Positions 5,704 through 38,033 of a stretch of DNA of 44,569 bases are shown one piece after another. The translations under genes and the position numbers were made by a program. Positions within the stretch are counted from its first letter, which is position 1. Each line of letters starts with the position of its first letter. The notes under the pieces are model-generated. The model worked only from the letters and a program-made list of their open reading frames with translations, made no database searches and was not told the origin of the DNA. Source of the stretch: Candidatus Aegiribacteria sp. (GTDB lineage Bacteria > Fermentibacterota > Fermentibacteria > Fermentibacterales > JCC-6); assembly GCA_021108435.1 (NCBI GenBank), contig JAIOQY010000190.1, forward strand, positions 1-44,569, given 5' to 3'.

Positions 5704-5857
5704 AAAACCGATAATCGATTAAATACCATGATCTTCCTGTTCAGTTGTAGATGGTCTGCGAATCTGAAGCAGATTATGTTCCCTGAGTGCATTATGTTTT
5801 TGTTATATAATGTTTGAACGGCAAAGAGACTAAGATATCTCTGTACAGGAGGATGAT

Positions 5858-7348
5858 ATGATTCTGATGATTATAGCTGTGGCTCTTCTGGGTGATGTTT
5901 ACGACGATATTACCGTGACCAGAAACCCTGATCCAAATTATGTGGCGGGAACGTACGAAGAGTGGCTAGAGGATCAGCCCGATTTCCAGCCGTTCTTCGC
6001 AAGAACCATTATGGGAAGCGATGGAGCGGAGTTTCTGCTGGTATTCGAGAATGGACTTACCGACAGTCTTGAGGCTGGAGTCCTCGAACAGTGGACCGCT
6101 GATATCGCGTCCCAGGGGCTTTCATGGGAGGTAGTGGAGGTTACCTACAGTACACCGGAGGATCTCAAGAGTTACCTTACGGATAAGTACAACGATGGAC
6201 TGGAGGGCGCGGTTCTGGTGGGGATTCTCCCCACTGCCTGGGTCATGCTTGAGAACTCATTCGGAGGTAATGAGCACTTCCCTTGTGATTATTTCCTGAT
6301 GGATCTTGATGGAACATGGGAAGATCTTTGGGTGGGTTATCCCTCAAGCGGTGTTCCCGGATCGGATGGAAAATACGATACTTTCAGCGGAAGTCTGGAT
6401 CCGGAGATATATACCGGACGGATCAAGGTGGACAATCTCAATGCGCTTGGTGATCCCATCGAGATGCTTAATGACTACATCGAGCGGAACCATGTCTGGC
6501 GGATGAACGGAGGTCCCGACCCTCTGACTGCTCTATTGTATGTGGATGATGACTGGGCAGGCTGGTCTGGTCTGCAGGCTTCAATGCAGCACCTCTATCC
6601 CAACACGATACTGGTAAACGATATTTACGGAACCAACGGAACTGATTATCTGGAGACCAGGCTTCCGGATGCCTACGTTTGGATAAGCCCCTTTGTACAT
6701 TCGAGTCCGAATACTCATTACTGGGCACAGGGTCCCTCCACCAACTGGGACGAGATCGTACCTGCCAACCCACAGGCGCATTTCTATAACCTGTTCGCAT
6801 GTTCAAATGCCCGTTTTACAACTACTCGCTGCATGGGAGCGGTTTACGCATTCTGTACGTCCGCAGGACTTGCTTCCGTTGGCAGCACCAAGACGGGTTC
6901 CATGATGCAGTTCACCCAGTTCTACTATCCTATGGGACAAGGAGCATCGATAGGTGAAGCATACAAAGACTGGTGGGACTACATCGCTACCAACGGTCTG
7001 TCCCAGGATGAGAGATCATGGCATCTGGGTATGGTCCTTCTGGGTGATCCATCATTGATGCCTGCAATGCACATGCTGGGCATTGAGGATCAGAGTACTG
7101 AGACCAATACGTCATCAGGATTGATAATTGCGGAAAACCCCTGTCAGTCGGAACTGGTTCTGACATATGCTGAAGCACAGCAGGGTACAGTGGAACTGTA
7201 TGATACTTCCGGAAGGCTTGTGGCATCCGGTACACTTGAAGATTCATCCTGCACGCTGTCTTTATCATCAATCCAGACGGGATTTTACATTGTGAAAGTT
7301 ACAGCAGCAGGCATATCAGCACAGACATCGGTAGTTATCCTCAGATAG
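5858..7348 (+). CDS. Secreted gingipain-type (C25) peptidase with T9SS-like C-terminal domain
   Basis: Clan CD peptidase of the gingipain (C25) type. ATG 5858 has AGGAGG seven bases upstream. The signal peptide is very short (MILMIIAVALLG) with no basic residue. The catalytic domain shows ALVGILPTAW-like strand packing, the EIYTGRI motif typical of C25 proteins, His281 in PFVHSSPNTHYW and Cys315 in NLFACSNARF as the likely dyad, and WHLGMVLLGDPSLMP near its end. The last 80 residues form a short sorting domain (NPCQSELVLTY, ELYDTSGRLVASG, TGFYIVKV) ending VVILR. Gingipain pro-region and adhesin domains are absent, so it is a minimal form. Probably extracellular and supplying peptides to a fermenting cell; specificity cannot be read from the sequence. 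A TATAAT at about 5803 lacks a convincing -35 box. Confidence 0.85.
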   Translation: MILMIIAVALLGDVYDDITVTRNPDPNYVAGTYEEWLEDQPDFQPFFARTIMGSDGAEFLLVFENGLTDSLEAGVLEQWTADIASQGLSWEVVEVTYSTPEDLKSYLTDKYNDGLEGAVLVGILPTAWVMLENSFGGNEHFPCDYFLMDLDGTWEDLWVGYPSSGVPGSDGKYDTFSGSLDPEIYTGRIKVDNLNALGDPIEMLNDYIERNHVWRMNGGPDPLTALLYVDDDWAGWSGLQASMQHLYPNTILVNDIYGTNGTDYLETRLPDAYVWISPFVHSSPNTHYWAQGPSTNWDEIVPANPQAHFYNLFACSNARFTTTRCMGAVYAFCTSAGLASVGSTKTGSMMQFTQFYYPMGQGASIGEAYKDWWDYIATNGLSQDERSWHLGMVLLGDPSLMPAMHMLGIEDQSTETNTSSGLIIAENPCQSELVLTYAEAQQGTVELYDTSGRLVASGTLEDSSCTLSLSSIQTGFYIVKVTAAGISAQTSVVILR

Positions 7349-7665
7349 GGTCATCAATGTGCAGTGTGTGAATACGCGCTTCTGACAGAAGCACTGAATA
7401 TGGATATGAAGTAAGTCCTCCTGCTTAAGGTAGAATCCGTCCGCGGTCAGGTTTACCCTGGCCCGCCATCCAAGCAAATAACCAAAGCGTAAAAGAATTT
7501 TACAAAACAGGACAGCACCGGTTCTGTCAATTCAATGCGAAATACGTGGATTAACCCATTTATCTCTATTTGTATAATTAAACTGACTAATGTTTGACAA
7601 TCAGAACTCTATTAGTATACTTTGCAACAATCAATTATTATTTTCTTATTGATAAGGAGGGCGCT
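7349..7665. other. Intergenic region (317 bp) with hairpins and promoter
   Basis: No gene recognised. A hairpin GCTTC-TGACA-GAAGC sits at 7378-7392, and a second stem GGTCAGG/CCCTGGCC at about 7457-7475. Neither has a U-tract. A strong promoter at 7594-7621 serves the next gene. Confidence 0.5.
7594..7621 (+). promoter_or_regulatory. Strong sigma70-like promoter, TTGACA-N16-TATACT
   Basis: TTGACA at 7594-7599 and TATACT at 7616-7621 with a 16-base spacer, 44 bases before the ATG at 7666. A TTG inside this -35 box opens the longer frame, so that upstream start is almost certainly wrong. Confidence 0.8.
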
Positions 7666-9483
7666 ATGAAAATATCGATTGTTCTTTCTATGATTCTGAC
7701 AGTAGTTTGCATTGCTGCTCAGGCCGTTCAGAGTGACTGGACTCAGGGTTCGGGCACAACTGGACCAACAGGGGACTGGGGCTCCTGCTTCGACAGCTGC
7801 CAGGACATTTCCTGGCTCGCTGTTCCCGGCCAGCTGGCCCTGGCTTCGGTGCAGCTTGAGGAGACGGTGTTTCATGCTGTTGATAACTCGTTTGCGGGAG
7901 CGTATACCGTTGACGTCGGCGATCTCAACGGAGATGGTCTCAACGACATCATCGGAGGAGGATCCCAGTCGCCTCAATTCTGCGCCTGGTACGCAGATGG
8001 CTCCGGCGGATGGGTGGAGGGTATAATTTCCTCAACAGCAGACAGCCCGACCGGCTGTGATATAGTCGACATCGATGACGATGGAGACCCTGATATCCTA
8101 TGCGCTACCTACTACGGCGGGCGAGTACTGCTTTTCCTTAATGACGGCAGTCCCACTCCCATGTGGACTGAGGTGGTGATCTCCCCGTCCTTCGCGGGTG
8201 GACATGATGTAGAAAGTTTCGACATGGATAATGACGATGATCCTGATATTCTCGCCGCAGCTGCGGAGGGCGACAGGGTAACCTGGTGGAGGAATGATGG
8301 TGGTACCCCAATAGTGTGGCACGAGCAGGATATTTCAACATCAGTCAACTATCCCTGCAGGATACAGGCTTGCGATCTCAACGGAGATGGTCTTATGGAT
8401 GTTGTTGCAAGTATGTGGCTTGGCGACAACATAGTTGCATGGTACGGATCCGGTGGGGGAGACCCTACATGGACAGAACAGCTTATCTATTACCCGGTTT
8501 ACGGAGCCCATTCGGTGAGAGCGTCGGATGTTGATCTGGATGGCGACCCGGATCTTATAGCATCGTCCCTCGACGAAGGCAGAGTCCTTCTGTTCAGGAA
8601 CGGAGGCGGCATACCTGTCCAATGGACAAGGGAAGTGATCAGCTCTCAGTCGGGCTGCGGCTACGCAAGACCCGGGGATATTGATGGTGACGGAGACTAC
8701 GATGTTATTGCTTCTTCATTTGGTTCCGGTGGCGCCTTCTGGTATGAAAATACGGCGGGAGGTACTTCCTGGATGAGGCATCCGATAGCCACTGACCTTG
8801 GAAGCATAGCCTGCTCGCTACCCGCCGATGTGGACGGTGACGGTGACCTTGATGCAGTACTGACCTGCAGGGGCTCAGGCAGAATCCTGTGGTACGAAAT
8901 GGCGGAGTTCAAGCCTTCTGGATGGCTTATCAGTTCAATTCTGGATACGGGAGAAAATCCACAGTGGGCAAGTATTGACTGGAGCTGTTTGCTTCCTCCA
9001 AGTACCGGTTTTTCTGTAAGCTACCGAACTTCTGATGACCCGGGTGCGATGGGTGACTGGTCACTCCCTTTCGAGAATCCCATGGAACTCAGTGGTCTTC
9101 TTGAAAGGTATTTTCAGTACCGGATAGATATAGATACTTCTGATCCCTCGATGTCTCCGGTTCTTGAATCGCTGCAGCTTAACTGGGATCCGACAGGGGT
9201 GCATGGCCAGGCTGAATCATCAGGCCTGACACTAACTCTGATCGGCGGTAATCCTGTCAGGGGATCGGTGATTATCCGATTAGAAGGGAACCGGAACTGC
9301 TGTGTAGAATTAGGGATCTATGACTGCTCCGGAAGACTGGTATGGTCAGACAGCCGGGATCTGGAAGAAAACTCCGAGGAATTCCTGCAGATATCCAACC
9401 TCCCGGATGGATCCTACAGGATGTACATGAGGGAAGCCTCAGGAACAGTTATCGCTCTTCCTGTGATCGTGCTTGATCGATGA
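7666..9483 (+). CDS. Secreted FG-GAP/VCBS-repeat beta-propeller protein with T9SS-like tail
   Basis: ATG 7666 follows AAGGAGGGCGCT and opens a clear signal peptide (MKISIVLSMILTVVCIAAQA), giving 605 residues. Seven repeats carry Asp-rich calcium-binding loops of the form DxxDDGDxD: DLNGDGLND, DIDDDGDPD, DMDNDDDPD, DLNGDGLMD, DVDLDGDPD, DIDGDGDYD and DVDGDGDLD, each followed by I/V-rich strands and a Trp-containing segment. This is the integrin-alpha-like FG-GAP/VCBS propeller, usually a binding rather than enzymatic fold. The C-terminal ~90 residues (GGNPVRGSVIIRL, IYDCSGRLVWSD, LPDGSYRMYM) form a sorting domain ending VLDR. Likely surface-located, binding carbohydrate or protein; the ligand is not evident. 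Its own strong promoter indicates independent transcription. Confidence 0.85.
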   Translation: MKISIVLSMILTVVCIAAQAVQSDWTQGSGTTGPTGDWGSCFDSCQDISWLAVPGQLALASVQLEETVFHAVDNSFAGAYTVDVGDLNGDGLNDIIGGGSQSPQFCAWYADGSGGWVEGIISSTADSPTGCDIVDIDDDGDPDILCATYYGGRVLLFLNDGSPTPMWTEVVISPSFAGGHDVESFDMDNDDDPDILAAAAEGDRVTWWRNDGGTPIVWHEQDISTSVNYPCRIQACDLNGDGLMDVVASMWLGDNIVAWYGSGGGDPTWTEQLIYYPVYGAHSVRASDVDLDGDPDLIASSLDEGRVLLFRNGGGIPVQWTREVISSQSGCGYARPGDIDGDGDYDVIASSFGSGGAFWYENTAGGTSWMRHPIATDLGSIACSLPADVDGDGDLDAVLTCRGSGRILWYEMAEFKPSGWLISSILDTGENPQWASIDWSCLLPPSTGFSVSYRTSDDPGAMGDWSLPFENPMELSGLLERYFQYRIDIDTSDPSMSPVLESLQLNWDPTGVHGQAESSGLTLTLIGGNPVRGSVIIRLEGNRNCCVELGIYDCSGRLVWSDSRDLEENSEEFLQISNLPDGSYRMYMREASGTVIALPVIVLDR

Positions 9484-19506: not shown

Positions 19507-20715
19507 TTAATGCGGCACAATGCTGAGAAGCACACCGGCAGCTATCGCGCTTCCGATAACTCCGGCAACGTTTGGTGCCATTGCATGCATCAGAAGATGG
19601 TTTTTAGGGTCATACTTCCGACCCTCTATCTCGACAACCCTTGCGGAATCCGGAACAGCGGACACTCCAGCCGCACCTATAAGGGGGTTGATCTTATTGT
19701 CACCTCTCAGGAAAAGGTTCATGAACTTCGCAAACAGCACGCCTCCTGCAGTCGCGATAGCGAAACTGACAGCACCAAGTACAAATATCTTCAAAGAATC
19801 GAATGTAAGGAAGTACATCGCCTGTGTGCTGGTTCCGACGGCAAACCCCAGTAGAATGACTACAATGTTGTTAAGTGAACCCTGAGCGCTTTTCGCAAGT
19901 CTGTCTGTGACTCCGCTCTCTTTTAACAGATTCCCGAAGAACAGCATTCCCAGAAGAGTAATAGCACCCGGCGCGATAAAAGAAGTTATCAGGAAAGCTA
20001 TTATCGGGAACAGCATTTTTTCCGTCTTTGAAACATGTCTTACCGGTTTCATTTTACGCCTGCGTTCTTCATCAGTTGTCAGCAAGCGCATTATGGGGGG
20101 TTGTATTACAGGCACCAGCCCCATATAGGAATACGCGGCAATTGCTATTGCTCCGAGTAAAGTGGGCGACATCTGACTCGCGACGAAAATCGCGGTCGGG
20201 CCGTCTGCTCCTCCGATTATTCCAATCGATGCCGCCTCCTGCAGATTAAAGCCAAGCAGGAGAGACCCGAGCAGAGTTATGAATATTCCTATCTGCGCAG
20301 CCGCTCCAAGGAGGAGCAGTTTAGGATTGGAAAGAAGGGCGCTGAAATCAGTCATCGCGCCGATTCCCAGAAAGATCAATGGAGGAAAGAGACCGCTTTT
20401 CACGCCCAGATAGAAAAGACTGAATACCGAGTGCTGGCCTCCAAGAACATCCTGATACCCGATTGGCATGAGTTCAGGATTGTAGGGAATGTTACCCGCG
20501 ATGATTCCGAATCCAATGGGAACCAGCAGGAGCGGCTCGTAGTCTTTCTTGATAGCCAGATAGATCATCACCAGACCTATAGCTATCATCACGATGTTCC
20601 CTATCTCCGCTCTTCCAAAACCTGTATCATCGAGATATGAAAGCAGATCCAGTCGCTGTCCGTTACCCTGAAGACATCCTGTAATCCACATGACCAGACT
20701 CGAAGAAAATGACAT
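19507..20715 (-). CDS. mmdB: Na+-translocating decarboxylase, beta subunit (membrane pump)
   Basis: Integral membrane subunit of the biotin-dependent, sodium-pumping decarboxylase family (OadB/MmdB/GcdB). It performs decarboxylation of carboxybiotin and exports Na+. Hallmarks: SVFSLFYLGVKSGLFPPLIFLGIGAMTDF, then the conserved GIIGGADGPTAIFVAS around the Asp essential for Na+ transport, and the C-terminal GAAGVSAVPDSARVV and HAMAPNVAGVIGSAIAAG. About nine hydrophobic segments follow a shorter N-terminus than Klebsiella OadB. The 402 residues fit the family range. It starts three bases after the biotin carrier stop. With neighbouring carboxyltransferase and mutase genes, methylmalonyl-CoA rather than oxaloacetate is the probable substrate. 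Confidence 0.92.
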   Translation of the reverse strand: MSFSSSLVMWITGCLQGNGQRLDLLSYLDDTGFGRAEIGNIVMIAIGLVMIYLAIKKDYEPLLLVPIGFGIIAGNIPYNPELMPIGYQDVLGGQHSVFSLFYLGVKSGLFPPLIFLGIGAMTDFSALLSNPKLLLLGAAAQIGIFITLLGSLLLGFNLQEAASIGIIGGADGPTAIFVASQMSPTLLGAIAIAAYSYMGLVPVIQPPIMRLLTTDEERRRKMKPVRHVSKTEKMLFPIIAFLITSFIAPGAITLLGMLFFGNLLKESGVTDRLAKSAQGSLNNIVVILLGFAVGTSTQAMYFLTFDSLKIFVLGAVSFAIATAGGVLFAKFMNLFLRGDNKINPLIGAAGVSAVPDSARVVEIEGRKYDPKNHLLMHAMAPNVAGVIGSAIAAGVLLSIVPH

Positions 20716-20718
20716 TCG

Positions 20719-21159
20719 TCAGCTCTCGATTTTCATTATGATGGCGTTTTCCAGAATAGTATCCCCTTCAGAGACAACTATTTCCTGTACAGTCCCTGTT
20801 ATGGGAGATTCAATCTCATTCTCCATTTTCATGGCTTCCATGATGGCAACAGGCTGCCCTTCGGAAACATTATCTCCTTCTTTGACATGAATTTTCAGTA
20901 TCAATCCCGGCAATGGCGCTATGACATCTCCCCCGGACAGAACTGATCCGGGTGCTGAGGTTCTGTCCGGAACTTCAGCAGCATTCATGACTTCATGTCT
21001 TCTCCTGATGACAGGTGTTTGGGATACTCTTCGCATCGGGGTTTCTACGCTGACCTGATAAGTTTTTCCATCAAGAACAATATCAACTTTATCATCGACA
21101 ATTCTGCCGATGTCTACTGAATACGTTGTTCCGTCAATTGTTACCTTGTATTCACGCAT
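20719..21159 (-). CDS. mmdC: Biotin carboxyl carrier subunit of methylmalonyl-CoA decarboxylase
   Basis: Carries biotin between the carboxyltransferase and the membrane pump. The N-terminal 40 residues ([18 protein letters not shown]) match the gamma-subunit type; a Pro/Ala-containing linker of about 40 residues follows; the C-terminal biotinyl domain has the canonical VAIMEAMKMENEI with Lys111 as the biotinylation site and two flanking glycines (PLPGLILKI, SPITGTVQEI). At 146 residues it is slightly long. Its ATG overlaps the end of the OadG-like gene by 8 bases behind AGGAG, indicating translational coupling in the operon. Confidence 0.93.
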   Translation of the reverse strand: MREYKVTIDGTTYSVDIGRIVDDKVDIVLDGKTYQVSVETPMRRVSQTPVIRRRHEVMNAAEVPDRTSAPGSVLSGGDVIAPLPGLILKIHVKEGDNVSEGQPVAIMEAMKMENEIESPITGTVQEIVVSEGDTILENAIIMKIES

Positions 21160-21571
21160 TTTCTCGGCTCCTGTTCCACACCGATTCGGTTTTCTGGAGC
21201 TGTTCTGCTTTTCCAGCCAATCTCCAGGGAGAGTAAGGCTTTTCGTGAGTCTCCCATGTAAGTTTCATATTCTCAATCTGATCAAGGAAACAGAAGTGAG
21301 CATGAATCGCCGCGGATACCGCGGTAACCTCATGAGGGGAAAGGCGCCTGATATTTTTTCCTACGGAATTCTCTGACTTTCCTGTATTCTTTCTTAATCC
21401 AAAACCATCTCTGACCCACTTCTCCAGAGCAGGTAGAAAAAAGGACAGGCAGACAAGTCCGGAAAACACCGTAATCATGCCTACAAGGGCAATTCCAAAC
21501 CCTCCATGAATATTTTCTGAGTTCGATTGAGCCTGTACTATAATCTGTATTATCGTTGCTGTAATTATCAT
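21152..21571 (-). CDS. mmdD: OadG/MmdD-like small membrane subunit of the decarboxylase
   Basis: One membrane segment at about residues 22-46 ([23 protein letters not shown]), followed by a charged cytosolic part, as in OadG/MmdD, which hold the complex together. The C-terminal segment has the conserved [16 protein letters not shown] and [17 protein letters not shown], characteristic of the OadG-type assembly subunit in the Na+ pump family. The ATG overlaps the carboxyltransferase stop as ATGA (21568-21571), a tight operon junction. The long N-terminus before the membrane segment and the extra C-terminal extension to 139 residues are mild departures from the usual 80-110 residues. Confidence 0.85.
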
Positions 21572-23118
21572 AACGGGATATTCCCATGCTTTTTCGGTGG
21601 CAGGGTCTGCCTTTTGCCAGCAAGCATTTCCAGAGCTTTGATCAGTCGGAATCTTGTGTTAGAAGGCATTATCACATCATCAATGTAACCTCTAGAAGCA
21701 GCATCGTATGGATTGGCGAACTTGGACCTGTATTGGTCAACCAGTTCTTTCTTCCTTTGAACAGGATCATCCGCCTCTTTTATGTCATGATGGAAGATGA
21801 TCTCAACAGCTCCGTCAGGACCCATTACAGCAATTTCCGCCGTTGGCCAGGCATAATTGATATCCGCGCGGATATGCTTGGAACTCATGACATCGTATGC
21901 TCCTCCGTATGCCTTCCTGGTAATAAGCGTGATTTTTGGTACTGTTGCTTCCGCATAAGCGAAGAGAAGTTTTGCGCCGTTTCTGATTATCCCGCCGTAT
22001 TCCTGTGCAGTACCAGGCATGAAACCGGGCACATCCACAAAAGTCAGCAGCGGTATATTGAACGCGTCACAGAATCTTACAAATCGTGCAGCTTTGATGG
22101 AGGCGTCGTTATCGAGAACCCCTGCAAGGTAGGAAGGCTGATTCGCTATTATACCAACAGAGTGACCGTTCATCCTTGCGAATCCTATAATGATATTCGG
22201 AGCAAACATTCTCTGTATTTCAAAGAATTCTCCGTTATCTGTAACGGCTTCAATCAGTGTTCGCATCTCATATGGCTTATTCGGGCTGGCTGGAATGTAT
22301 TCGTCCAGCCACATCTCCTGCCTGTCAACAGGATCAGTGCATATCACTCTGATAGGATCTTCCATGTTGTTCTGAGGCAGGTAACTGATCAGCTTTCGAA
22401 TAAGAAGAAGAGCTTCTTCCTCATCCTCACATGCAAGACTGCAGACCCCGCTGCGCTTGCTGTGTATTGATGGTCCCCCAAGTTGTTCCTTTGTAACATT
22501 TTCTCCAGTTACTGTCTTCACAACGTTGGGACCGGTTACAAACATGTAGCTTATGCCCTTCACCATAATGGTGAAATCCGTAATAGCAGGACTGTATACA
22601 GCTCCTCCTGCGCAGGGGCCAAGTATAGCGGATATCTGAGGTATAACTCCGGAATAGAGAACATTCTTCAGAAATATCTTCCCGTAACCGGCAAGGCTTT
22701 CAATACCTTCCTGGATGCGGGCTCCTCCTGAATCGTTCAATCCTATCAGTGGAGCGCCATTCATAGCGGCCATATCCATTATTTTAAGAATCTTCTCGGC
22801 GAAAGTTTCTGAAAGACTTCCTCCAAAAACCGTGAAGTCATGGGAAAAAACATAAACCTGTCTGCCGTCGATGGTTCCGTAACCGGTAACCACTCCGTCT
22901 CCTGGAATCTTTTTCTTGTCCAGTCCGAAAGCTGTGGACCGATGTGTAACAAGCATGTCAAATTCCTCAAAACTGTCATGGTCAAGCAACAGATCGATTC
23001 TTTCTCTTGCAGTCATCTTTCCCTGAGCATGCTGCTTCTCTATCCTTTTCTCACCGCCGCCTTCAAAGGCTTGTTCGCGAAGAGCGCGGAGTTTGTCCGC
23101 TTTCTCAAGAGAACTCAT
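21568..23118 (-). CDS. mmdA: Methylmalonyl-CoA decarboxylase carboxyltransferase subunit (alpha)
   Basis: Carboxyltransferase of the acetyl/propionyl-CoA carboxylase beta superfamily. It transfers the carboxyl group of methylmalonyl-CoA to biotin. Diagnostic segments: [81 protein letters not shown], and in the second half [32 protein letters not shown] and [20 protein letters not shown] 23118 is two bases after the epimerase stop and has GAGGAAAA upstream, giving 516 residues, the usual length. A longer frame to 23154 overlaps the epimerase and is unlikely. The presence of the membrane pump gene in the same operon favours decarboxylation with Na+ export over ATP-dependent carboxylation, as no biotin carboxylase is in the window. 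Confidence 0.92.
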
Positions 23119-23120
23119 TA

Positions 23121-23543
23121 TCAGTTTTCCTCTTCCGCTTGTGCATGTTCGCATAATTCTGTGAGTACTTTTCCGCTGTCGGAAGGATGTACAAATGCTA
23201 TTTTCGAACCTCCGGCTCCATCCCTGGGAGCCGCATCAATCATTCTGATTCCTTTTTCGATGAATGATTCTATTTCAGCCGCAGTACTGTCAACCGCATA
23301 TGCGATGTGATGAACTCCCTGCCCTCTCTTCTCGATCGCCTTTGCAATAGGGCTTTCAGGCGATGTAGGTTCGAGAAGTTCTATCCGGGAATCGCCTATC
23401 GCAAACATCGCTACCCGCACTTTTTGCGTAGGAACTTCTTCAACACAAAGTAATTCCAGTTCGAGAACATCTCTGTAGAACGGAATCATCTTTTCAAGAC
23501 TCTCAACAGCAATTCCGATATGATCAATCCTGCTTACTGCCAT
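23121..23543 (-). CDS. mce: Methylmalonyl-CoA epimerase
   Basis: Interconverts (R)- and (S)-methylmalonyl-CoA, a vicinal oxygen chelate metalloenzyme. The 140-residue chain starts [18 protein letters not shown] with metal ligand His8, has [19 protein letters not shown], and [13 protein letters not shown] and KVLTELCEH, where the further His and Glu ligands lie. Start ATG 23543 has AGGAGAAGG upstream; a frame to 23567 is longer but has no ribosome site. It overlaps the MeaB gene by 20 bases, and lies between it and the carboxyltransferase. Both metabolic neighbours confirm the assignment. Confidence 0.93.
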
Positions 23544-24531
23544 TATCCTTCTCCTGTATCCCCTCAAGGAATCCGCTGAACATCTCCCCTATCATGTAAG
23601 GTGTTGTTTTTCCAGAGAGTACTGATTCAATCGCTTTATTAATGCTGCCATATTCGCCCGAAATAAGCTTTTTCGCAAGTTCAGATCCTCTTTCCCTGAT
23701 AATCCCATTCAGAATGAGGGTTGTTCGCCGTTTCGCATTATCCCGGCCTGCGACTTCAGACGAAAGCAGACTGTCTACGGTGCTGGCAAGATAATCGATT
23801 CCTTCCCCCGTCTGTGCGGAACACTTGATAACAGGAGGTCGTTTGGTTTGATCATCCATAAATTCAAGGCTGGCATTAACAGCTGTTTCAAGCTGTTCTA
23901 TACCGGGTCTGTCCGCCTTGTTCAGAACGATTACATCAGCGATTTCCATAATACCGGCTTTCATGGTCTGGACTTCATCACCAAAACCGGGCACAAGCAC
24001 AAGCAGAGTAATATCCGCGAGAGAGGCAACTTCCACTTCCGCCTGTCCTACCCCAACCGTCTCCACCAGTACAGGGTCATAGGAAGCAGCAGTCATCACT
24101 TCAAGAGCGTCCCGTGTTGCCCCGGAAAGACCCCCAAGGTGTCCCCTGCTACCCATACTCCTGATAAATACTCCCGGATCTGAAGCATGTTTCTGCATCC
24201 GCACTCTATCCCCCAGCAGCGCACCGCCGGAAAAAGGTGACGACGGATCAACGGCTATAACTCCAACATTCCGGTTGAGCTTTCTCCAGTATTCAATGAG
24301 CAGGTTCACAAGAGTACTCTTTCCCGCTCCTGGAGGACCGGTTACTCCGATGGTTTTTCCCTGCCTGTCCGGATTGTAAAGAGAGTGGAGTATCATGGAA
24401 CTGGATGGGTGCCCGTTTTCCACCATAGAGAGAACTCGCGCCAGACCTCTGGTTCTGCTTTCCCTCACGTCTGTAATAAAACCTTCGATTTCCGCTGGAA
24501 GCGAATTTGCATCATAACGGATTTGCGCCAT
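23524..24531 (-). CDS. meaB: MeaB/ArgK-type GTPase, methylmalonyl-CoA mutase chaperone
   Basis: G3E-type GTPase that loads and protects the cobalamin of methylmalonyl-CoA mutase. P-loop GPPGAGKST at residues 65-73; the conserved VIAVDPSSPFSGGALLGDRVRM; RSMGSRGHLGGLSGAT; switch II-like ETVGVGQAEVEV; and the base motif LNKAD. All are hallmarks of MeaB rather than the urease UreG or hydrogenase HypB GTPases. The N-terminal and C-terminal helical arms (DVRESRTRGLARVLSMVENG; ESVLSGKTTPYMIGEMF) mediate dimer and mutase contact in known structures. Gene lies 7 bp after the B12-binding subunit, as expected. Confidence 0.94.
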   Translation of the reverse strand: MAQIRYDANSLPAEIEGFITDVRESRTRGLARVLSMVENGHPSSSMILHSLYNPDRQGKTIGVTGPPGAGKSTLVNLLIEYWRKLNRNVGVIAVDPSSPFSGGALLGDRVRMQKHASDPGVFIRSMGSRGHLGGLSGATRDALEVMTAASYDPVLVETVGVGQAEVEVASLADITLLVLVPGFGDEVQTMKAGIMEIADVIVLNKADRPGIEQLETAVNASLEFMDDQTKRPPVIKCSAQTGEGIDYLASTVDSLLSSEVAGRDNAKRRTTLILNGIIRERGSELAKKLISGEYGSINKAIESVLSGKTTPYMIGEMFSGFLEGIQEKDNGSKQD

Positions 24532-24538
24532 TGCGGGA

Positions 24539-24937
24539 TTATCCTGACTGAAATTCGTTCTGAATAAATTCGATAACTTCAGTCGCGGCAGTTCCCGGAG
24601 TGAAGATAGCCTTGAATCCAGCCTTCTTCAGAGCAGGAATATCCTCCTCCGGAATAACTCCTCCTCCAAAAAGGATGATATCAGCAGCACCCTTTTCTTC
24701 AAGAAGCCTGGCTACTTCAGGGAACAGATAGTTGTGAGCACCGGACAGCAGAGACAAACCGATGAAATCGACATCCTCCTGGATGGCCGCGTTAGCTATT
24801 GCTTCCGGTGTCTGCCGAATTCCGGTGTAGATAACTTCCATGCCTGCATCGCGCAGAGCTCTCGCTATGTATTTGGCACCTCTGTCATGTCCATCAAGAC
24901 CCGGTTTTCCTATCAGTATACGTATTCTGCGATCCAT
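24539..24937 (-). CDS. Methylmalonyl-CoA mutase, free-standing B12-binding subunit
   Basis: Small cobalamin-binding domain of methylmalonyl-CoA mutase. The base-off/His-on motif is DGHDRG at residues 15-20 with His17 as the lower cobalt ligand, followed by [10 protein letters not shown] and the GGGVIPEED loop. ATG 24937 follows GGAGG five bases away; an ATG at 24952 is in frame but poorer. In split-type mutases this subunit pairs with a separate catalytic subunit of about 550 residues; that gene is not upstream here (the 5' side runs directly to the divergent PRPP synthetase), so it must be elsewhere. First gene of the operon, with 224 bp of divergent intergenic DNA before it. Confidence 0.92.
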
Positions 24938-25161
24938 AATCGCCTCCGGCATTTAGTATTAATGCAATCCTGAATATTCAATATCAGAAAACTTCAACTG
25001 AGCACTTCCCTAAAGCTTTCTCAACCCGCATAATATAAGCATCTCTATTTCCTGTGCATAATCCCGACCTGGAGGTTGAATTATAACCTGCCGCATGATG
25101 CTGTTGATGAGAGATTGTATCTATTTGTAGCTCTCTATTATCTTTGAATGGAGGGGTTTGA
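24938..25161. other. Divergent intergenic region between the mutase operon and prs
   Basis: Must contain the promoter of the large minus-strand operon and that of prs. I see no strong TTGACA-type box on either strand. A weak inverted repeat AGGTT/AACCT brackets AT-rich sequence near 25074-25090 and could be an operator. Confidence 0.4.
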
Positions 25162-26202
25162 ATGTTCGGAAACATAGCTATCTGCTGCGGTAGATCAAGC
25201 CAGACCCTTGGAAACAGGATCTGTGAAATACTGGGACTTGATCCCGAGCCTGTTGAATTCATCCAGTTCTCCAATGGTAATCTTATGGTTAATTTCACAG
25301 GTGAATCCGTTCGGGAAAAGGATGTTTTCATCATCCAGTCCGGTGAAAGGTCGATCTTTCAGGACCGGGATCGGTCTTTCGGCAAAATATCGGGTGATAT
25401 CATCGAACTGCTCCAGATGATCTATGCACTGAAAGACAGTGCCGGCAGGATAACTGCTGTTACTCCCTACTTTCCTTACGCAAGAAGCGATAAAAAAGAT
25501 AAACCGAGGATACCTATATCCGCGAAGATGTTATTCGACCTGCTTGAATCCGTTCAGGCTGACAGGGTGCTAACCATGACCCTTCACTGCCCTCAGAGTC
25601 AGGGATTCAGCAATATCCCGGTGGACCAGCTTCATGCAGATGATGTATTTATGGAGAAGATATTGTCATTTGGCACAGAGAAACTGGCTTTTGTTGCTCC
25701 TGATTCCGGAAGTATCATGAACAACGATTTTCTTGCGATGCACACGGCGAGATCAATTAGAGAAAAGGGCGGTACTCCTGATATAGTAACAGGATACGTC
25801 AAGAAGATGAGGATTGATGATAGCGAAACACCACATGTAAGAACTGTTGAGGGAGTTGATGATCTCACCGGCAGAACAGTCATTATAAACGATGATGAAA
25901 CGCTTTCAGGAAAAAGCCTTGTCATGTGCGCCGATATAGTGACTGAACGCGGGGCGGAGGATGTATATGCATTTGTCACCCACGGTATTCTTTCAGGGAA
26001 TTCCGTAAAGCGAATAGAGAACAGCTGCCTTACAAAACTCTTCGTAACAGATACAGTTGAATTTGACACCGATGCTGCCGAGAAAGTTGTGACCGGCCCT
26101 CTGAAGAAGATCGAGACTCTCTCCGTTGCCAGAGTCTTTGCTGAGGCCATCAAGCGAATACATGAAGGCCGAAGCCTGAGTTCACTCTTCCTCGGAAAAT
26201 AA
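25162..26202 (+). CDS. prs: Ribose-phosphate pyrophosphokinase (PRPP synthetase), divergent form
   Basis: Makes 5-phosphoribosyl-1-diphosphate from ribose 5-phosphate and ATP. Two phosphoribosyltransferase-fold domains: the first with VEFIQFSNGNLMVNF, the ATP-site YFPYARSDKKDKPR and LTMTLHCPQSQGF; the second with YVKKMR in the flexible loop, then NDDETLSGKS in place of the usual DD(I/M)(I/V)DTGGT PRPP-binding loop, and YAFVTHGILSG. At 346 residues it is longer than typical bacterial Prs (about 315). ATG 25162 follows TGGAGGGG. The altered loop loses the consecutive Thr-Gly-Gly/Ala-Thr, so phosphate contacts must differ. Function is inferred; a non-catalytic PRPP-synthetase-associated role is possible. 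Confidence 0.8.
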   Translation: MFGNIAICCGRSSQTLGNRICEILGLDPEPVEFIQFSNGNLMVNFTGESVREKDVFIIQSGERSIFQDRDRSFGKISGDIIELLQMIYALKDSAGRITAVTPYFPYARSDKKDKPRIPISAKMLFDLLESVQADRVLTMTLHCPQSQGFSNIPVDQLHADDVFMEKILSFGTEKLAFVAPDSGSIMNNDFLAMHTARSIREKGGTPDIVTGYVKKMRIDDSETPHVRTVEGVDDLTGRTVIINDDETLSGKSLVMCADIVTERGAEDVYAFVTHGILSGNSVKRIENSCLTKLFVTDTVEFDTDAAEKVVTGPLKKIETLSVARVFAEAIKRIHEGRSLSSLFLGK

Positions 26203-26304: not shown

Positions 26305-29283
26305 ATGAAAAGAAATATAATTCTCAAAATTTATGAGAAGCACCACGCAAAGGGTGTGGCAACCATGTGGTCTGAGAGTCGGGAGGGTTGGCCTCCCGGT
26401 TTTCTGGGCGCTTCCGAGTTCACTGCTGAAAGCGTTGAGATGGAAGAGCAATCATCCGGCAAGCTCTTTACTGTACTGGCTCTGGACGGAGACCGTGTGG
26501 TGGGTTTCTGCCGCACAACACCGTACGGAGGTGAGCCGGACGCCGCATATGTGGCTCTTGTAAATGTAGTTCCGGATCTGCACGGAAAGAAGATTGGCAA
26601 ACGACTTCTTCTGGACGCTGTGGAAAGAACCGCATTAAAGGGCTTTTACAGAATTGACCTTCATACATGGCCTGCAAATCTCAAGGCTATGCCTCTTTAC
26701 AAAAAGACAGGCTTCTTCTGGGTCCCTGATACTATGGTTTACATGCAGAACTACATGCCTTTTCTGATAGGAAGGCCGGAATTTAAAGAATTCCTGGATG
26801 GTGAATCATGGTACGACATTTTCGAGCGGGAACTGACAGTTGAACCGGATGAACAGAAAACCGATTCGGGCAGGGAAGTGTTCAAATATCGATTTGCGAT
26901 CAAAGATAGATCCTTTGAGGCTGTGTTCGACAGAAGGGGAAGAATACTTTGCGCGATAAATGCCCCCGGCGTGACTGCTTCCATCGAGCGTGAAGTGGGG
27001 AAGATTTTCTTCGGCAGAGAAGTCAGCATAAACCTTGCAGGGGATTCACTGCCCGATAGAATTGATATGAAATCTCATGAATATCTTTCAGCTCCATCAT
27101 CGGTCACGCTGGATGAAGCGACTTCGGGCTTTAAAATCGTTCATGAACCGGTAGAGGTTCCTGTACCTGAGAGGGATAGATCTCCCAGAGTATCAGCACT
27201 GATTCCAGGGAGAATTCCTGTGGAATTAGGGCTCGGGATAAGAGCTGAAGAGCCTGTATCGCTGCTTTCGCCTCCTGTCAGGAGGATACGGCAGGGACAG
27301 AGTGTGCTCGAGCTCGACCTCAAGAAACTTGCTGACGCCGATTCCGTGACTGTGCTTACTTCATTGAACGGTGAAAAGCTTCAGGAACAGAAATTCGGAC
27401 TTGATGAATCCGTCTTTCAACGGATCAGAATTCCTCTCCCGGAATTGTCGAATGGAATTCACGAACTGGCGCTCAGGTTCAAGTTGTTCGATCAATGCGG
27501 AGCCGAGGAAAAACTCATCCTTGTATCCGGACCCTTTACAGGCATTCCTGAATCGAGAATCACAAGGAAATCAGCAGTGATTATCGGCAGGGATATTTCT
27601 ATTGAGGTTGCCAGCACCGGAGCATGGACGTCCGTCTGGGGGCACGGTATGGACGATAAACCATCCAGACTCGGAGGGCTCAGACTTTACGCCGGTCCGC
27701 CTTACTGGAATTCTGACTTACCTCATCAGCTGTACAATTTCAAACTCGACGGGAATGTTATCAATGCAGGCACTGCCTGGTCTGCCAGACCAGGAATGGT
27801 TCATGAATGCAGTTTTTCACTTGATCCGGCAGGTTTCATCAGGGCTAGCAGTATTGTTCGGAATGGATCGGATTCAGTACAGAAAATCAGGTTTTCAGCT
27901 GTATGGGGCGGGGGTCAATCATTTACGCCCGGAACCGACGCTATCCCTCTGAAGGAAGGTGTCTACACCGGCAACAGGATATACAACCAGATCCCTGACT
28001 GGACCGAAGATCTCCCAAAAATAGTAGACGAACTCGGTGCACCATGGCTGGCTTTGTCCGGCCCCGACAGATCATTGATAGCTTACTTCCCTGACTGGTC
28101 CAGTCTTCGGTATGATCGACCCGAAACTGAGGAAATACTTATCAAACCCGGCGAATATGCTGAATCACCAGTATTGAAGCTGCTCTTCTCTGACGGCAAT
28201 TTCGACTGTCTTTTCAGGAGAGCTACATCCCTTGGCTGGGAACTGGGAGAAACAGAGAAGCAATTCGGTTTTCTCAACCATAATATTACTCCTGTCATGC
28301 GGAATGGAGCAGAAGTAAAGCTTTCTCACCGCCTTCTTGGAAAGCGTAAAGCCGCCATTATTCTCGATGGTGAAGTGCTCTCTGAAGGATCTGTATCCAA
28401 AGAAACTTCCATCTCCGCTGCGATGTCCGGCTCCGGTTTCAGTGAGATCGACCTTGTGATGGCGGAAAGAAAGACCGTATATCCGGTTCTAATGCTACCC
28501 GAAACCGTTGAATCCACAGAACTTATCGAGGAAGACAAGATCCTTGTTCTTCAGAATGCGAGGATAAAGGCTCTGATAGACCCGGCAGAGTTCGGTCATG
28601 TATTCAGCCTGAAACTGGACGATGTGGAGTTTCTAATGTCCTCTCATCCGGGACCTTCGGACTTCGCCTGGGAGAAGCCATGGTTCGGGGGAATAATACC
28701 CAGGGTAAATACTTCTGGAGAGAAACCCTTCAGACTCGACACGCTAAAGCCTGAATGGAGCAGATTCGAGCTTGAAACAAACGGTCTGGCGGAGAAAGGC
28801 TGGGAACTCAGGTGGAAGATAGACCATAAGAAATACGGCTCATTGAATCTGACCTGGCGAGTCTCAATGTTCCCCGGTATTCCTGTTATCCGAACCAGTT
28901 TCTGTCCCGAGGCTCTTCACGAAACTTATTTAGGAGGTGAATTCGATGTCCGCGGTTTCCTCTCCCCTGGAGGAGAACATGAGAATGCTGTGTTCTCATC
29001 TCAAACCGAACCGCTCCTCAGGCAGGGAAGAAAGCATGCGGGATCGTGGTCTTTTGTCGGTGACTGGGCCAGGGTCGAGACGCCCGGAAAGGGTTTTGTC
29101 GAGGCATATTCTCTTGAAAAGGGTATTTTCTTCTCTGAAGACTACGCTGAACATGGTTGTCATCTTTCCGTTTTTTCAACACATGATAAAAAGAACATCG
29201 TGGAGATGCTCTGGCTGTTCGGCTCATGTGAAGATGATGACAGGCTCTCGAAAATCTTCAGAAAACATGGGGGCCGGGCCTAA
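26305..29283 (+). CDS. Giant GNAT acetyltransferase fused to beta-rich domains (992 aa)
   Basis: The N-terminal 150 residues are a GNAT acyltransferase: VVGFCRTTPYG, VALVNVVPDLHGKKIGKRLLLDAVERT (acetyl-CoA pyrophosphate loop in the slightly altered form HGKKIG) and FYRIDLHTWPANLKAMPLYKKTGF. The remaining 840 residues hold no family I can name; they are dominated by beta strands with aromatic-glycine patterns (GLRLYAGPPYWNS, YFPDWSSLRYD, PSDFAWEKPWFGGIIPR) that resemble the galactose-mutarotase/beta-sandwich folds of glycoside-active proteins. No signal peptide or membrane segment, so cytosolic. Such a fusion suggests acetylation of a glycan or glycoconjugate. The last residues KHGGRA and the stop are encoded inside a palindromic repeat (29269-29296), so the C-terminus may not be original. 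Confidence 0.75.
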   Translation: MKRNIILKIYEKHHAKGVATMWSESREGWPPGFLGASEFTAESVEMEEQSSGKLFTVLALDGDRVVGFCRTTPYGGEPDAAYVALVNVVPDLHGKKIGKRLLLDAVERTALKGFYRIDLHTWPANLKAMPLYKKTGFFWVPDTMVYMQNYMPFLIGRPEFKEFLDGESWYDIFERELTVEPDEQKTDSGREVFKYRFAIKDRSFEAVFDRRGRILCAINAPGVTASIEREVGKIFFGREVSINLAGDSLPDRIDMKSHEYLSAPSSVTLDEATSGFKIVHEPVEVPVPERDRSPRVSALIPGRIPVELGLGIRAEEPVSLLSPPVRRIRQGQSVLELDLKKLADADSVTVLTSLNGEKLQEQKFGLDESVFQRIRIPLPELSNGIHELALRFKLFDQCGAEEKLILVSGPFTGIPESRITRKSAVIIGRDISIEVASTGAWTSVWGHGMDDKPSRLGGLRLYAGPPYWNSDLPHQLYNFKLDGNVINAGTAWSARPGMVHECSFSLDPAGFIRASSIVRNGSDSVQKIRFSAVWGGGQSFTPGTDAIPLKEGVYTGNRIYNQIPDWTEDLPKIVDELGAPWLALSGPDRSLIAYFPDWSSLRYDRPETEEILIKPGEYAESPVLKLLFSDGNFDCLFRRATSLGWELGETEKQFGFLNHNITPVMRNGAEVKLSHRLLGKRKAAIILDGEVLSEGSVSKETSISAAMSGSGFSEIDLVMAERKTVYPVLMLPETVESTELIEEDKILVLQNARIKALIDPAEFGHVFSLKLDDVEFLMSSHPGPSDFAWEKPWFGGIIPRVNTSGEKPFRLDTLKPEWSRFELETNGLAEKGWELRWKIDHKKYGSLNLTWRVSMFPGIPVIRTSFCPEALHETYLGGEFDVRGFLSPGGEHENAVFSSQTEPLLRQGRKHAGSWSFVGDWARVETPGKGFVEAYSLEKGIFFSEDYAEHGCHLSVFSTHDKKNIVEMLWLFGSCEDDDRLSKIFRKHGGRA

Positions 29284-29403: not shown

Positions 29404-30990
29404 CTATTCGAGCCAGATTCTGCCCATTGTTGAAGCATCGAACTCTATTGGATAGATCCATGTCGCGTAGTCATCGTCAATTACTCTGTACAGATGCATA
29501 AACACGAAATCATCTTCGGGATCAAGCAGCGGTATGTTAAAGGCAGCTTCTATACACCAGTAGGTATCGTCTGTCATGACTACAATGGAATAGCCCTCTT
29601 CCCAATCCTCCCACTCTCCCTCAGGGGGAATGATAAGAGCTTCTGTTGTACCGTCACGCCAGACCTTGAGCCAGTAGAAGGTCTCACCGGAACTGAAAAT
29701 AAATCCTGCGTAATCATCGCTTATGGATGAACTCCCCTGCATTTCCATGCAGAGAAACAGATTCTTTTCATCAGTTGCCGCTCTGAATCCCGTTCCGGGA
29801 AGATCTGATGGTTGCCCCTCCGGGTTGGCGAAATCCTTTTGAAAAACCCCTCTGTATTCACCTATAGATACTCTTCCATCAAGAACGGGTTCCATAACAA
29901 ACGCATTTGCCCTGCGAAGAACAGGCCAGAAATACTCAAATGACATTTCCCTGTTTCGCGAACCATACTCCATTTCGATTGTTATAACCGGTGAGGGGTA
30001 TGGACTGCCTTCGGGGGATTGAGTGAAATGGAGCTCAACAGGATCTTCCATTAGTTCTATCTCAAGAGTGTCAGGATGCAGGTTCCAGTTCCCCGAATTT
30101 ACGCTCAATCGAATGGTTCTTGTTCGGTCTTCTACCGGACGTAATGTGAGAACTGTGGATTCCATTTCCATCTCCAGTTGTCGTCCTGCAATCATTTCAT
30201 TCCTGTAGAGGTAGAACAGACTCATTTCTTCACCGGTATTGATACTCTCAGAGTAAACCCCTCTTGCATCAACTATGGCATAGGCTACAGAATCAGGCCA
30301 GATTGTCATCCAGCCGAACTGAGTGAAATTACCATGCTCCGGGTCAGGTTCCGGCACAGCGCTGCCGGAAGGTCCTGCTGATATGTAGAGAACGCCATCC
30401 TCGCGATCGGCGGCAAAGCGATGTATATGTCCACCCACTACTGCCAGCGGCCCTGATTCCGTCATGAGCTTCTTGAAATCACTCACCACATCCGGATCCT
30501 CATAAGACATGAACCAGAAAGGTTTGTGAGTTACAAGTATCCATGGTTTGTCCTTGTCAATCTCCTCTATAAAACTTTCTATAAGATCCAGATCATCCAT
30601 CGACAGGCAGTCATCTCTTGATGTGTCCCATATGACAAATGTAATTCCGGATATTTCTTCGATCCGGGAGGGTTCGGTGCCGGTGTATTCCTTCCAGTAA
30701 TTCTCTGTCTGATCGTTCCAGATGTCATTGTTTCCGGGAGTGAACACAAATGGAAAACGGGAGGTAAGTCTTTCCAGAACGGGAAGGATACTGTCCCAGT
30801 CCTCACATGCGGTCGCAACATCTCCGTTTCCTTCAACGAAATCACCAACTGAAAGCACTATGTCCGGAGACATCTCCACGATAGCATCGATGGCTATTTC
30901 AAATTCGTTATCATCGGGAGAACCAGTTCTGTCTCCAAAAACAGCTACCCTCACCGGAAAAGAAGCCAGAAGAATCAGTATTAATGTCAC
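29404..30990 (-). CDS. Secreted metallophosphoesterase with CBM9-like C-terminal domain
   Basis: Calcineurin-type metallophosphoesterase. Motifs: VAVFGDRTG (Asp20; the usual His after it replaced by Arg), VLSVGDFVEG (Asp50), FTPGNND, ILVTHKPF and VVGGHIHRF, in the right order. The start is GTG 30990, behind AGAAGGGAATA. The signal peptide is minimal (MTLILILLASFPVRVA) without a basic n-region. After the phosphatase domain (to about residue 240) comes a beta-sandwich stretch and, from about 380, a domain with GRVSIGEYRGVF and ATDEKNLFLCMEM resembling CBM9/DOMON carbohydrate-binding modules; it lacks the T9SS tail. Last gene of the minus-strand run after tadA. Substrate unknown; phosphoesters of sugars or nucleotides are plausible. 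Confidence 0.82.
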   Translation of the reverse strand: MTLILILLASFPVRVAVFGDRTGSPDDNEFEIAIDAIVEMSPDIVLSVGDFVEGNGDVATACEDWDSILPVLERLTSRFPFVFTPGNNDIWNDQTENYWKEYTGTEPSRIEEISGITFVIWDTSRDDCLSMDDLDLIESFIEEIDKDKPWILVTHKPFWFMSYEDPDVVSDFKKLMTESGPLAVVGGHIHRFAADREDGVLYISAGPSGSAVPEPDPEHGNFTQFGWMTIWPDSVAYAIVDARGVYSESINTGEEMSLFYLYRNEMIAGRQLEMEMESTVLTLRPVEDRTRTIRLSVNSGNWNLHPDTLEIELMEDPVELHFTQSPEGSPYPSPVITIEMEYGSRNREMSFEYFWPVLRRANAFVMEPVLDGRVSIGEYRGVFQKDFANPEGQPSDLPGTGFRAATDEKNLFLCMEMQGSSSISDDYAGFIFSSGETFYWLKVWRDGTTEALIIPPEGEWEDWEEGYSIVVMTDDTYWCIEAAFNIPLLDPEDDFVFMHLYRVIDDDYATWIYPIEFDASTMGRIWLE

Positions 30991-36425: not shown

Positions 36426-38033
36426 ATGAAAAACCTGATAGTGATTTTTCTGCTTTTATGTTTCGTTTCCTTTTCAACCGCTGATCCGCCTTCTAGTTTT
36501 GACTTGCGCAATGTCTTTGGCGAGAACTATGTAACTTCTGTAAAAAGCCAGCAGGGTGGCACATGCTGGACCTTCGGAGCAATGTCAGCCATTGAGGGAA
36601 ATCTGTTAATGACGGGTGTCTGGGCAGCATCGGGAGAGACCGGTGAGCCTGATCTTGCTGAATACCATCTTGACTGGTGGAACGGTTTCAACCAGTTCAA
36701 CAATGATGATACAGACCCTCCCACAGGGGGCGGACTTGAGGTGCATCAGGGAGGTGACTACCTTGTGACTTCAGCATATCTCACCAGGGGTGAGGGAGCC
36801 GTAAGAAACATTGATGGTCAGTCCTTTGATACTGCTCCCGATAGATACCAACCAAGTTATCATTACTACTATCCAAGGACTATTGCATGGTACACTGCGG
36901 GAGCAAATCTTGAGAATATCAATGAAATCAAGCAGGTCATTATGGACCACGGTGTCATAGGAACATGCATGTGTTACGATGGCAGCTTCATGTCAGGCTA
37001 TATTCACTATCAGCCGCCATCCAGCACACTTGATCCTAACCATGCCATTTCGATCATAGGCTGGGATGACGCGAAGGCAACACAGGCTCCGCAGCCAGGC
37101 GCCTGGCTCTGCAAGAACAGCTGGGGCACCGGCTGGGGGAATAGCGGATACTTCTGGATATCCTTTTACGACAAGCACTGCTGCCAGAATCCCACGATGG
37201 GTGCTATTTCTCTTCGCGATGTAGAGCCTCTTGAATATTCGAATATTTACTACCACGACTACCACGGATGGAGAGATACTCTTCTGACAGCAACTGAGGC
37301 ATTTAACGCTTTCGTGGCTGATAATTATGAAACGGTGGAAGGTGTCAGTTTTTTCACTGCTGTGGATAACGTTGATTATACAGTGAAGATCTTCAATACT
37401 TTCTCTGGAGGAGAACTCCTTGATGAACTAACTAGTGAAAGCGGTACAGCTTCATATACCGGTTTCCATACCATTGAACTTTCAACTTCGGTAAATATTG
37501 ATACAGGATGCGATTTCTATGTCTACCTGGAACTTCTGGATGGAGGCCAGCCCTTCGGCTGTACTTCAGATGTTCCTGTACTGCTCGGAGCAAGTTACAG
37601 AACCATTGTAGAATCATCTGCAAGTCCGGGTGAGAGTTTCTATCTTAGCGGCGCATCCTGGACAGACCTTACAACAGTGGATACCACTGCAAATTTCTGC
37701 ATAAAGGCTCTGAGCAATCTTTCAGTTGGTATTGAGGGAGAGGATGATGTTCCCTCTGTTCTTTCGTTAGATCCTTTATATCCCAATCCCTTCTCCGCAC
37801 AGGTTGTTATACCTTTCAATCTTGCTTCTGCTGGATTTGCGGAGATCTCTGTTTACGACCTCTCCGGAAGACAGATTAAGACCATTGCCGGACAGGAATT
37901 CATGGCCGGAGAATATACGGTCATATGGCAGGGCAGAGACACCAATGAGAACCCCGCAGCTTCCGGGGTTTACTTCGTACGTATATGGACAGAAGCCGGT
38001 TCTGTAACCAGGCAGGTAATGCTTATCAGATAA
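36426..38033 (+). CDS. Secreted papain-type (C1) cysteine peptidase with T9SS-like C-terminal domain
   Basis: Papain-fold endopeptidase. ATG 36426 follows TTGGAGG at eight bases; signal peptide [19 protein letters not shown]. The mature enzyme begins at once with PPSSFDLRN, without a pro-region: [17 protein letters not shown] carries catalytic Cys47, [12 protein letters not shown] has His206 and [20 protein letters not shown] has Asn231. The usual Gln oxyanion residue is Gln42 with one residue fewer before the Cys than in papain. A beta-sandwich insert-like region follows (250-435), then the FlgD/T9SS domain ([36 protein letters not shown]) ending VMLIR. Third unrelated secreted cysteine peptidase in the window with this tail. 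Convergent with the phosphohexomutase gene across a hairpin. Confidence 0.9.

Follow-up and report, generated by a model that had tools for sequence, protein, structure and literature searches.

The gene at positions 26305..29283 on the + strand of the window (the whole stretch of 44,569 nucleotides that was analysed, from Candidatus Aegiribacteria sp.) encodes a 992-residue protein in which a GNAT acetyltransferase domain is predicted to be followed by beta modules, a first supersandwich domain, a beta linker and a second supersandwich domain. On sequence comparison, this layout is that of one conserved family across distant bacterial lineages, a family that is dark but assembled from known parts. 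We tentatively favour the reading that the protein acts in the cytosol as an acetyltransferase on an (amino)sugar-bearing small molecule, which would be held by the supersandwiches. We consider this reading plausible, somewhat short of probable, with the acceptor as its inferred part. A description of the family was not found in the literature, which was searched largely outside subscription journals.

The open frame of 992 codons starts with an ATG at 26305 and its stop codon ends at 29283. Judged by its sequence, it is a genuine gene and not a chance ORF, because it has relatives throughout the phylum and its N-terminus scores above the cut-offs of the GNAT models. A chance or chimeric ORF is ruled out by the full-length relatives and by the co-linear beta region. 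The fusion gene is present as a single copy in the source genome, and no signal peptide was evident at the N-terminus of the protein on reading by eye. The Rfam search of the window returned nothing at gathering score. A catalogued anti-phage defence protein was also considered and rejected, since PADLOC gave nothing at 0.01 for the four proteins submitted.

The GNAT domain covers residues 1-172 (26305..26820, + strand), with the Pfam match to PF00583 at residues 45-137 (E 4.3e-14, 53.2 bits vs a curated cut-off of 20.7). This match and the phylum-wide relatives bear out the 992-residue ORF with an N-terminal GNAT that the preliminary description had proposed. In an alignment of 21 hand-chosen sequences (A4), from which the conservation figures for the fusion are taken, N125, A128, Y132, G136 and F137 are invariant in 21 of 21 relatives. 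They form the pattern N..A...Y...GF, which we take to be motif B, the GNAT catalytic motif with its catalytic-type tyrosine. W29, W122, W139 and W169-Y170 are invariant in all 21 as well, and from GNAT anatomy we presume that the invariant tryptophans lie near the acceptor side. The strict acetyl-CoA P-loop pattern of GNATs is (Q/R)xxGx(G/A). It is not literally matched by the window protein, where this region reads H93-G-K-K-I-G98, a point against the proposed reading; relatives such as that at locus L034 have HGKGVG, and G98 is kept in 21/21 relatives. Motif conservation supports GNAT chemistry. The mean pairwise identity over the 21 relatives is 46% for the GNAT vs 15-24% for the beta modules. 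Because of the invariant residues, and because the GNAT is far more conserved than any beta module, the function under constraint appears to be acetyl transfer to a single, conserved kind of acceptor. The protein is thus like the GNAT superfamily in its PF00583 match above cut-off, its motif-B residues and its catalytic-type tyrosine, and it differs by about 820 residues of beta modules and by the named equivalog models (NCBIfam), which score far under their cut-offs.

The residues beyond the GNAT have no Pfam or NCBIfam match. A PDB sequence search with the beta part found nothing at E 1, and the PDB profile search gave 24 matches, nearly all of which are weak and confined to the GNAT part. 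We describe this part of the protein from predicted models. The full-length model has a mean pLDDT of 75.1, with values below 50 at residues 28-37, 121-146, 175-190 and 779-806, among others, and consists of an alpha/beta N-terminal domain followed almost entirely by strands. In the models residues 175-992 are almost all beta, and neither a barrel-type nor a GH38 N-terminal catalytic domain was recognised in them. Where the preliminary description had seen one unknown region of 840 residues, structure prediction and VIA-align point instead to several modules, with a known fold for most of the region.

The first of these modules is a beta-rich region at residues 185-407 (26857..27525, + strand), defined by secondary structure and by a match across lineages. 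Relatives show weak, sub-threshold Ig-like Pfam matches here, and it is probably made of one or two Ig-like modules, as far as the models tell. At the other end of the protein lies a galactose-mutarotase-like supersandwich at residues 736-992 (28510..29280, + strand), which in VIA-align matches 3ty1 from about residue 732 on (Z 18.7, rmsd 4.1, 255 aligned) and 3imh (Z 18.5, rmsd 3.0, 227 aligned). Residues 633-990 match the C-terminal half of the GH38 mannosidase 7ufs (Z 18.4, rmsd 3.4, 231 aligned). When residues 408-735 were folded alone (pLDDT 88.8), another supersandwich, the first of the two along the chain, was seen. It is also galactose-mutarotase-like, has approximate limits of 408-645 (27526..28239, + strand) and matches 9ayu (Z 17.2, rmsd 3.0, 216 aligned), the mutarotase GalM 4bze (Z 17.0, rmsd 2.9, 206 aligned) and the GH174 fucanase 9k1g (Z 15.1, rmsd 3.3, 218 aligned). 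The VIA-align rows mainly span residues 413-651 for the first supersandwich and 635-991 for the second. Between the two lies a small beta module at residues 646-735 (28240..28509, + strand), assigned from secondary structure in the models and possibly Ig-like. The top Foldseek match of the beta modules is 6sd0, and the identity to the matched mutarotase-fold chains is about 6-13%.

Both supersandwiches are thus predicted to have the fold found in mutarotases and in accessory domains of GH38, GH36 and GH2 enzymes, in line with the earlier suggestion of a beta-rich region similar to carbohydrate-active folds. The mean pairwise identity in the 21 relatives is 23% for residues 185-407, 21% for the first supersandwich and 24% for the second, and the linker between the supersandwiches is the least conserved part with 15%. 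A P-W-x-G-G motif at 792-796 is found family-wide in the second supersandwich, with P792, G795 and G796 in 21/21 and W793 in 20/21 relatives. A recent duplication of the supersandwiches is unsupported, as the profile-profile comparison of the two gave only E 0.5, which leaves room for an ancient one.

The phyletic profile proposed earlier shows a widespread family. A match to the fusion was found in 28 of 42 genomes of the source phylum, the window's genome included, where one genome (G031) counts with a 70-residue fragment only and several other copies are cut by contig ends. The relatives across the phylum have 94%, 83%, about 58% and about 45% protein identity. The 21 named loci of the species collection belong to MAGs of Candidatus Aegiribacteria, Fermentibacteria or Fermentibacteraceae, and Sabulitectum, with the closest at 94% identity. 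Most of the phylum copies belong to one group about 57-94% identical to the window protein or to a second at about 44-49%, and deeper branches lie at 35-42%. We searched 385 genomes with a phylum profile (A2), whose alignment omits both halves of the split L041 gene and the partial copies L031, L033, L037, L039 and L042. Seven of the 343 genomes outside the phylum had matches in ORFs of 1,045-1,086 residues (E ≤1.3e-38), and seven more had GNAT-sized matches only, at E 1.9e-6 or worse. In L041 (2622-5548), and also in the G029 and G035 copies, the second paralogue appears split over two frames, through a frameshift or an error in the MAG.

Long relatives were found in several distant lineages, to which we refer as the G093 family and the G181, G152 and G075 phyla; some of these relatives are cut by contig ends. 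In the G093 family 84 of the 197 genomes carry a relative of nearly full length, in a search that scored at most four candidates per genome, so that copies may be missed; at a threshold of 0.001 the tally is 116, which takes in ordinary GNATs. In the G181 phylum 35 of the 117 genomes gave matches at ≤1e-100, in the G152 phylum 14 of 16 gave matches at ≤1e-80, and two of the four G075-phylum genomes had long matches. A plasmid search with a relative gave one record, from Cytobacillus spongiae, whose homologue WP_233811912.1 is annotated only as GNAT family N-acetyltransferase.

The kinship extends beyond the GNAT. With the GNAT removed, the beta region of the phylum is co-linear, across 746 columns, with its counterpart in 16 proteins from other lineages (hhalign E 4.4e-32, in a comparison of one profile against one). 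Three beta sub-regions each match across lineages and in order, with hhalign E-values of 2e-10 (residues 185-407), 3e-7 and 2e-16. In a 62-row tree a single branch sets off each of four groups from the rest, namely the source phylum, the G093 family and the G152 and G075 phyla; for the G181 phylum two changes are needed. The tree was built by a quick method, contains some long rows and leaves out L063 (on the same contig as L034) and rows below 900 aa. From this clade-by-clade arrangement, the descent of the fusion family looks mainly vertical.

Directly upstream of the fusion gene in the window is prs, encoding ribose-phosphate diphosphokinase (25162..26202, + strand; TIGR01251, 2e-73). By tblastn of 25 phylum loci, the gene just before the fusion, in the same orientation, is prs in 14 loci of the window's group (L022-L033, L036 and L038), some of which share a MAG. 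In L061, which belongs to another family of the order, prs is one gene removed, and it was not found beside the fusion in the other ten. Of these, L037 and L039 start inside the fusion gene, and L042 has a partial copy (59% identity, residues 1-246) with about 6.6 kb upstream. The remaining ones, L034/L063 (the same place), L035, L040, L041, L060 and L062, belong to the second group or to deeper branches. A sulfatase-family gene (PF00884, 1.9e-54, one scanned) immediately precedes the fusion in 5 of the 8 loci from the G152 phylum. No neighbour kept beside the fusion across phyla was seen among the clustered loci.

Other genes of the window were noted in passing. A metallophosphoesterase gene (29404-30990, - strand; PF00149, 6.4e-12), whose product has a C-terminal tail that looks DOMON/CBM9-type by eye, lies next to the fusion and convergent to it, here and in several relatives. 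On the - strand at 19507-24952 there is, by eye, an apparent methylmalonyl-CoA/oxaloacetate-type sodium-pump decarboxylase cluster with genes for a carboxyltransferase, a biotin carrier, a membrane beta subunit, methylmalonyl-CoA epimerase, a MeaB-like GTPase and a B12-binding small subunit. The + strand carries clostripain-family, C25-peptidase and FG-GAP proteins at 4006-9483 and, at 36426-38033, a protease of the papain family that bears a Lectin_like domain and a Por_Secre_tail sorting signal.

A gene pair was found in the G093 family, where an Amidohydro_2 gene (PF04909, 8.8e-27, one scanned) directly follows the fusion. Counting Amidohydro_2 only at E ≤1e-40, with weaker ones excluded, the same 84 of 197 genomes have both genes, and neither was found at the counted level in the other 113. 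In all 84 genomes the two genes are neighbours with the same orientation, their matched ranges lying -11 to 155 bases apart (Fisher 7e-58 for the co-occurrence, with the relatedness of the genomes ignored). In the ORF-based view the partner is beside the fusion in 19 of 20 loci and the twentieth appears in the genome search; in these loci (L054, L059 and L084-L101) it overlaps or closely follows the fusion. H7, H9, H147, H182 and D247 of the partner are invariant in 19/19 and presumably form its metal site. No match to the partner came from the window's genome at E 1 (in a search that had no positive control), from 97 loci outside the G093 family (tblastn) or from the surroundings of the Cytobacillus homologue, so a reading based on the pair may not carry over to these.

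In the mechanism that we propose, the N-terminal GNAT would bind acetyl-CoA and acetylate an amine (or a hydroxyl) on the acceptor, and Y132 would probably serve as the general acid. Most likely this acceptor would be sugar-bearing, for instance an amino sugar, a glycoside or a glyco-metabolite, and the two supersandwiches may hold and position it, serving for binding and scaffolding and not for hydrolysis. The sugar-bearing acceptor is suggested by the mutarotase fold, the invariant tryptophans and the precedent of RmNag. RmNag is a fungal GH3 beta-N-acetylglucosaminidase with a glucosamine N-acetyltransferase region; this GNAT region acetylates glucosamine (PMC4680927). RmNag is like the fusion in that a GNAT is joined to a carbohydrate-active protein, and differs from it by tandem C-terminal GNATs and an active GH3, where the fusion has one N-terminal GNAT and no recognised GH catalytic domain (PMC4680927). 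That the fusion may acetylate glycans or glycoconjugates, as was first suggested, is a reasonable inference. The neighbouring genes are not clearly glycan genes, and this counts against the sugar-acceptor reading. In the G093 family the metal-dependent amidohydrolase of the adjacent gene may also handle the product or the substrate. A bolder form of the proposal is possible and rather doubtful: tandem sugar receptors of the mutarotase fold would be built into a GNAT enzyme that acts in a glyco-metabolite pathway and, in the G093 family, forms an obligate two-enzyme unit with the amidohydrolase, in which acetylation is followed by hydrolysis or deacetylation.

Alternatively, the beta modules might be a scaffold only, for oligomerisation or for protein docking of the kind seen in the periplasmic domain of YidC, and the acceptor of the GNAT would be a protein or a small molecule other than a sugar. 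The periplasmic domain of YidC, not a sugar enzyme, is among the fold matches of both supersandwiches, and since it shares the fold, the fold is no proof of sugar binding. The fast divergence of the beta modules and the weak GNAT profile matches of the fusion, which include RimI, PaiA and NAA30-type enzymes, also speak for such a scaffold. Against it, two complete supersandwiches and the family-wide P-W-x-G-G motif in the second look like kept pockets, and sugars are the usual ligands for enzymes of this fold. On balance we regard a mere scaffold as rather unlikely.

Detoxification, in which a sugar-bearing toxin or antibiotic (e.g. aminoglycoside-like) would be acetylated and then degraded further by the partner hydrolase where this is present, appears improbable to us. 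It would fit the patchy distribution in the G093 family and the neighbours in the G181 phylum, where ABC exporters, further GNATs and HflX-like genes recur by eye in some loci. There the fusion adjoins ABC-type genes in L117, L119-L122 and L134, with exporter pairs in several, and an ABC-F-like gene is close by in some loci, among them L122. HflX-like genes were noted in L120 and L134, and extra GNATs in L117 and L121. The Cytobacillus plasmid homologue, whose next gene is guaC, similarly has four GNAT genes and a phosphotransferase nearby. However, the exporter and HflX-like neighbours are not kept across phyla, there is no resistance-family match above cut-off, and the mainly clade-by-clade distribution and the prs synteny look like housekeeping.

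We also compared the beta modules with the enzymes that share their fold. GalM has the supersandwich that is predicted for both C-terminal domains of the fusion; the fusion differs in having two tandem copies behind a GNAT and no acid or histidine kept in 19/21, and aldose 1-epimerase profiles (Pfam, NCBIfam) do not match it. The C-terminal halves of GH38 alpha-mannosidase and GH2 beta-galactosidase combine beta modules with a supersandwich as the fusion does, whereas their own catalytic domain was not recognised in the fusion, which has the GNAT in its place. The fusion as a glycoside hydrolase (GH2, GH36, GH38) was rejected: no GH profile of Pfam or NCBIfam matched, no GH catalytic domain was recognised in the models, and the beta region did not turn out to be the known hydrolase that was weighed at the outset. 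A bifunctional enzyme with the GNAT and a catalytic supersandwich, either epimerase or hydrolase, is the most improbable alternative, for although GalM (an active example of the fold) and the fucanase 9k1g are among the matches, no GH or epimerase profile (Pfam, NCBIfam) matches and no D, E or H column in residues 408-992 reaches 19 of 21 relatives (the best acid is E775 with 18/21, in an alignment that is weak over the beta modules and could hide conserved acids), which argues against a common catalytic site there.

The acetyltransferase with an (amino)sugar-bearing acceptor is thus the reading that we tentatively keep. The family comprises proteins of about 1,000 residues of which the searched profile libraries cover only the N-terminal GNAT. 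Its resolved domain layout leads to a concrete hypothesis on the acceptor, and the gene pair found in 84 of 84 genomes is a tractable genetic handle.
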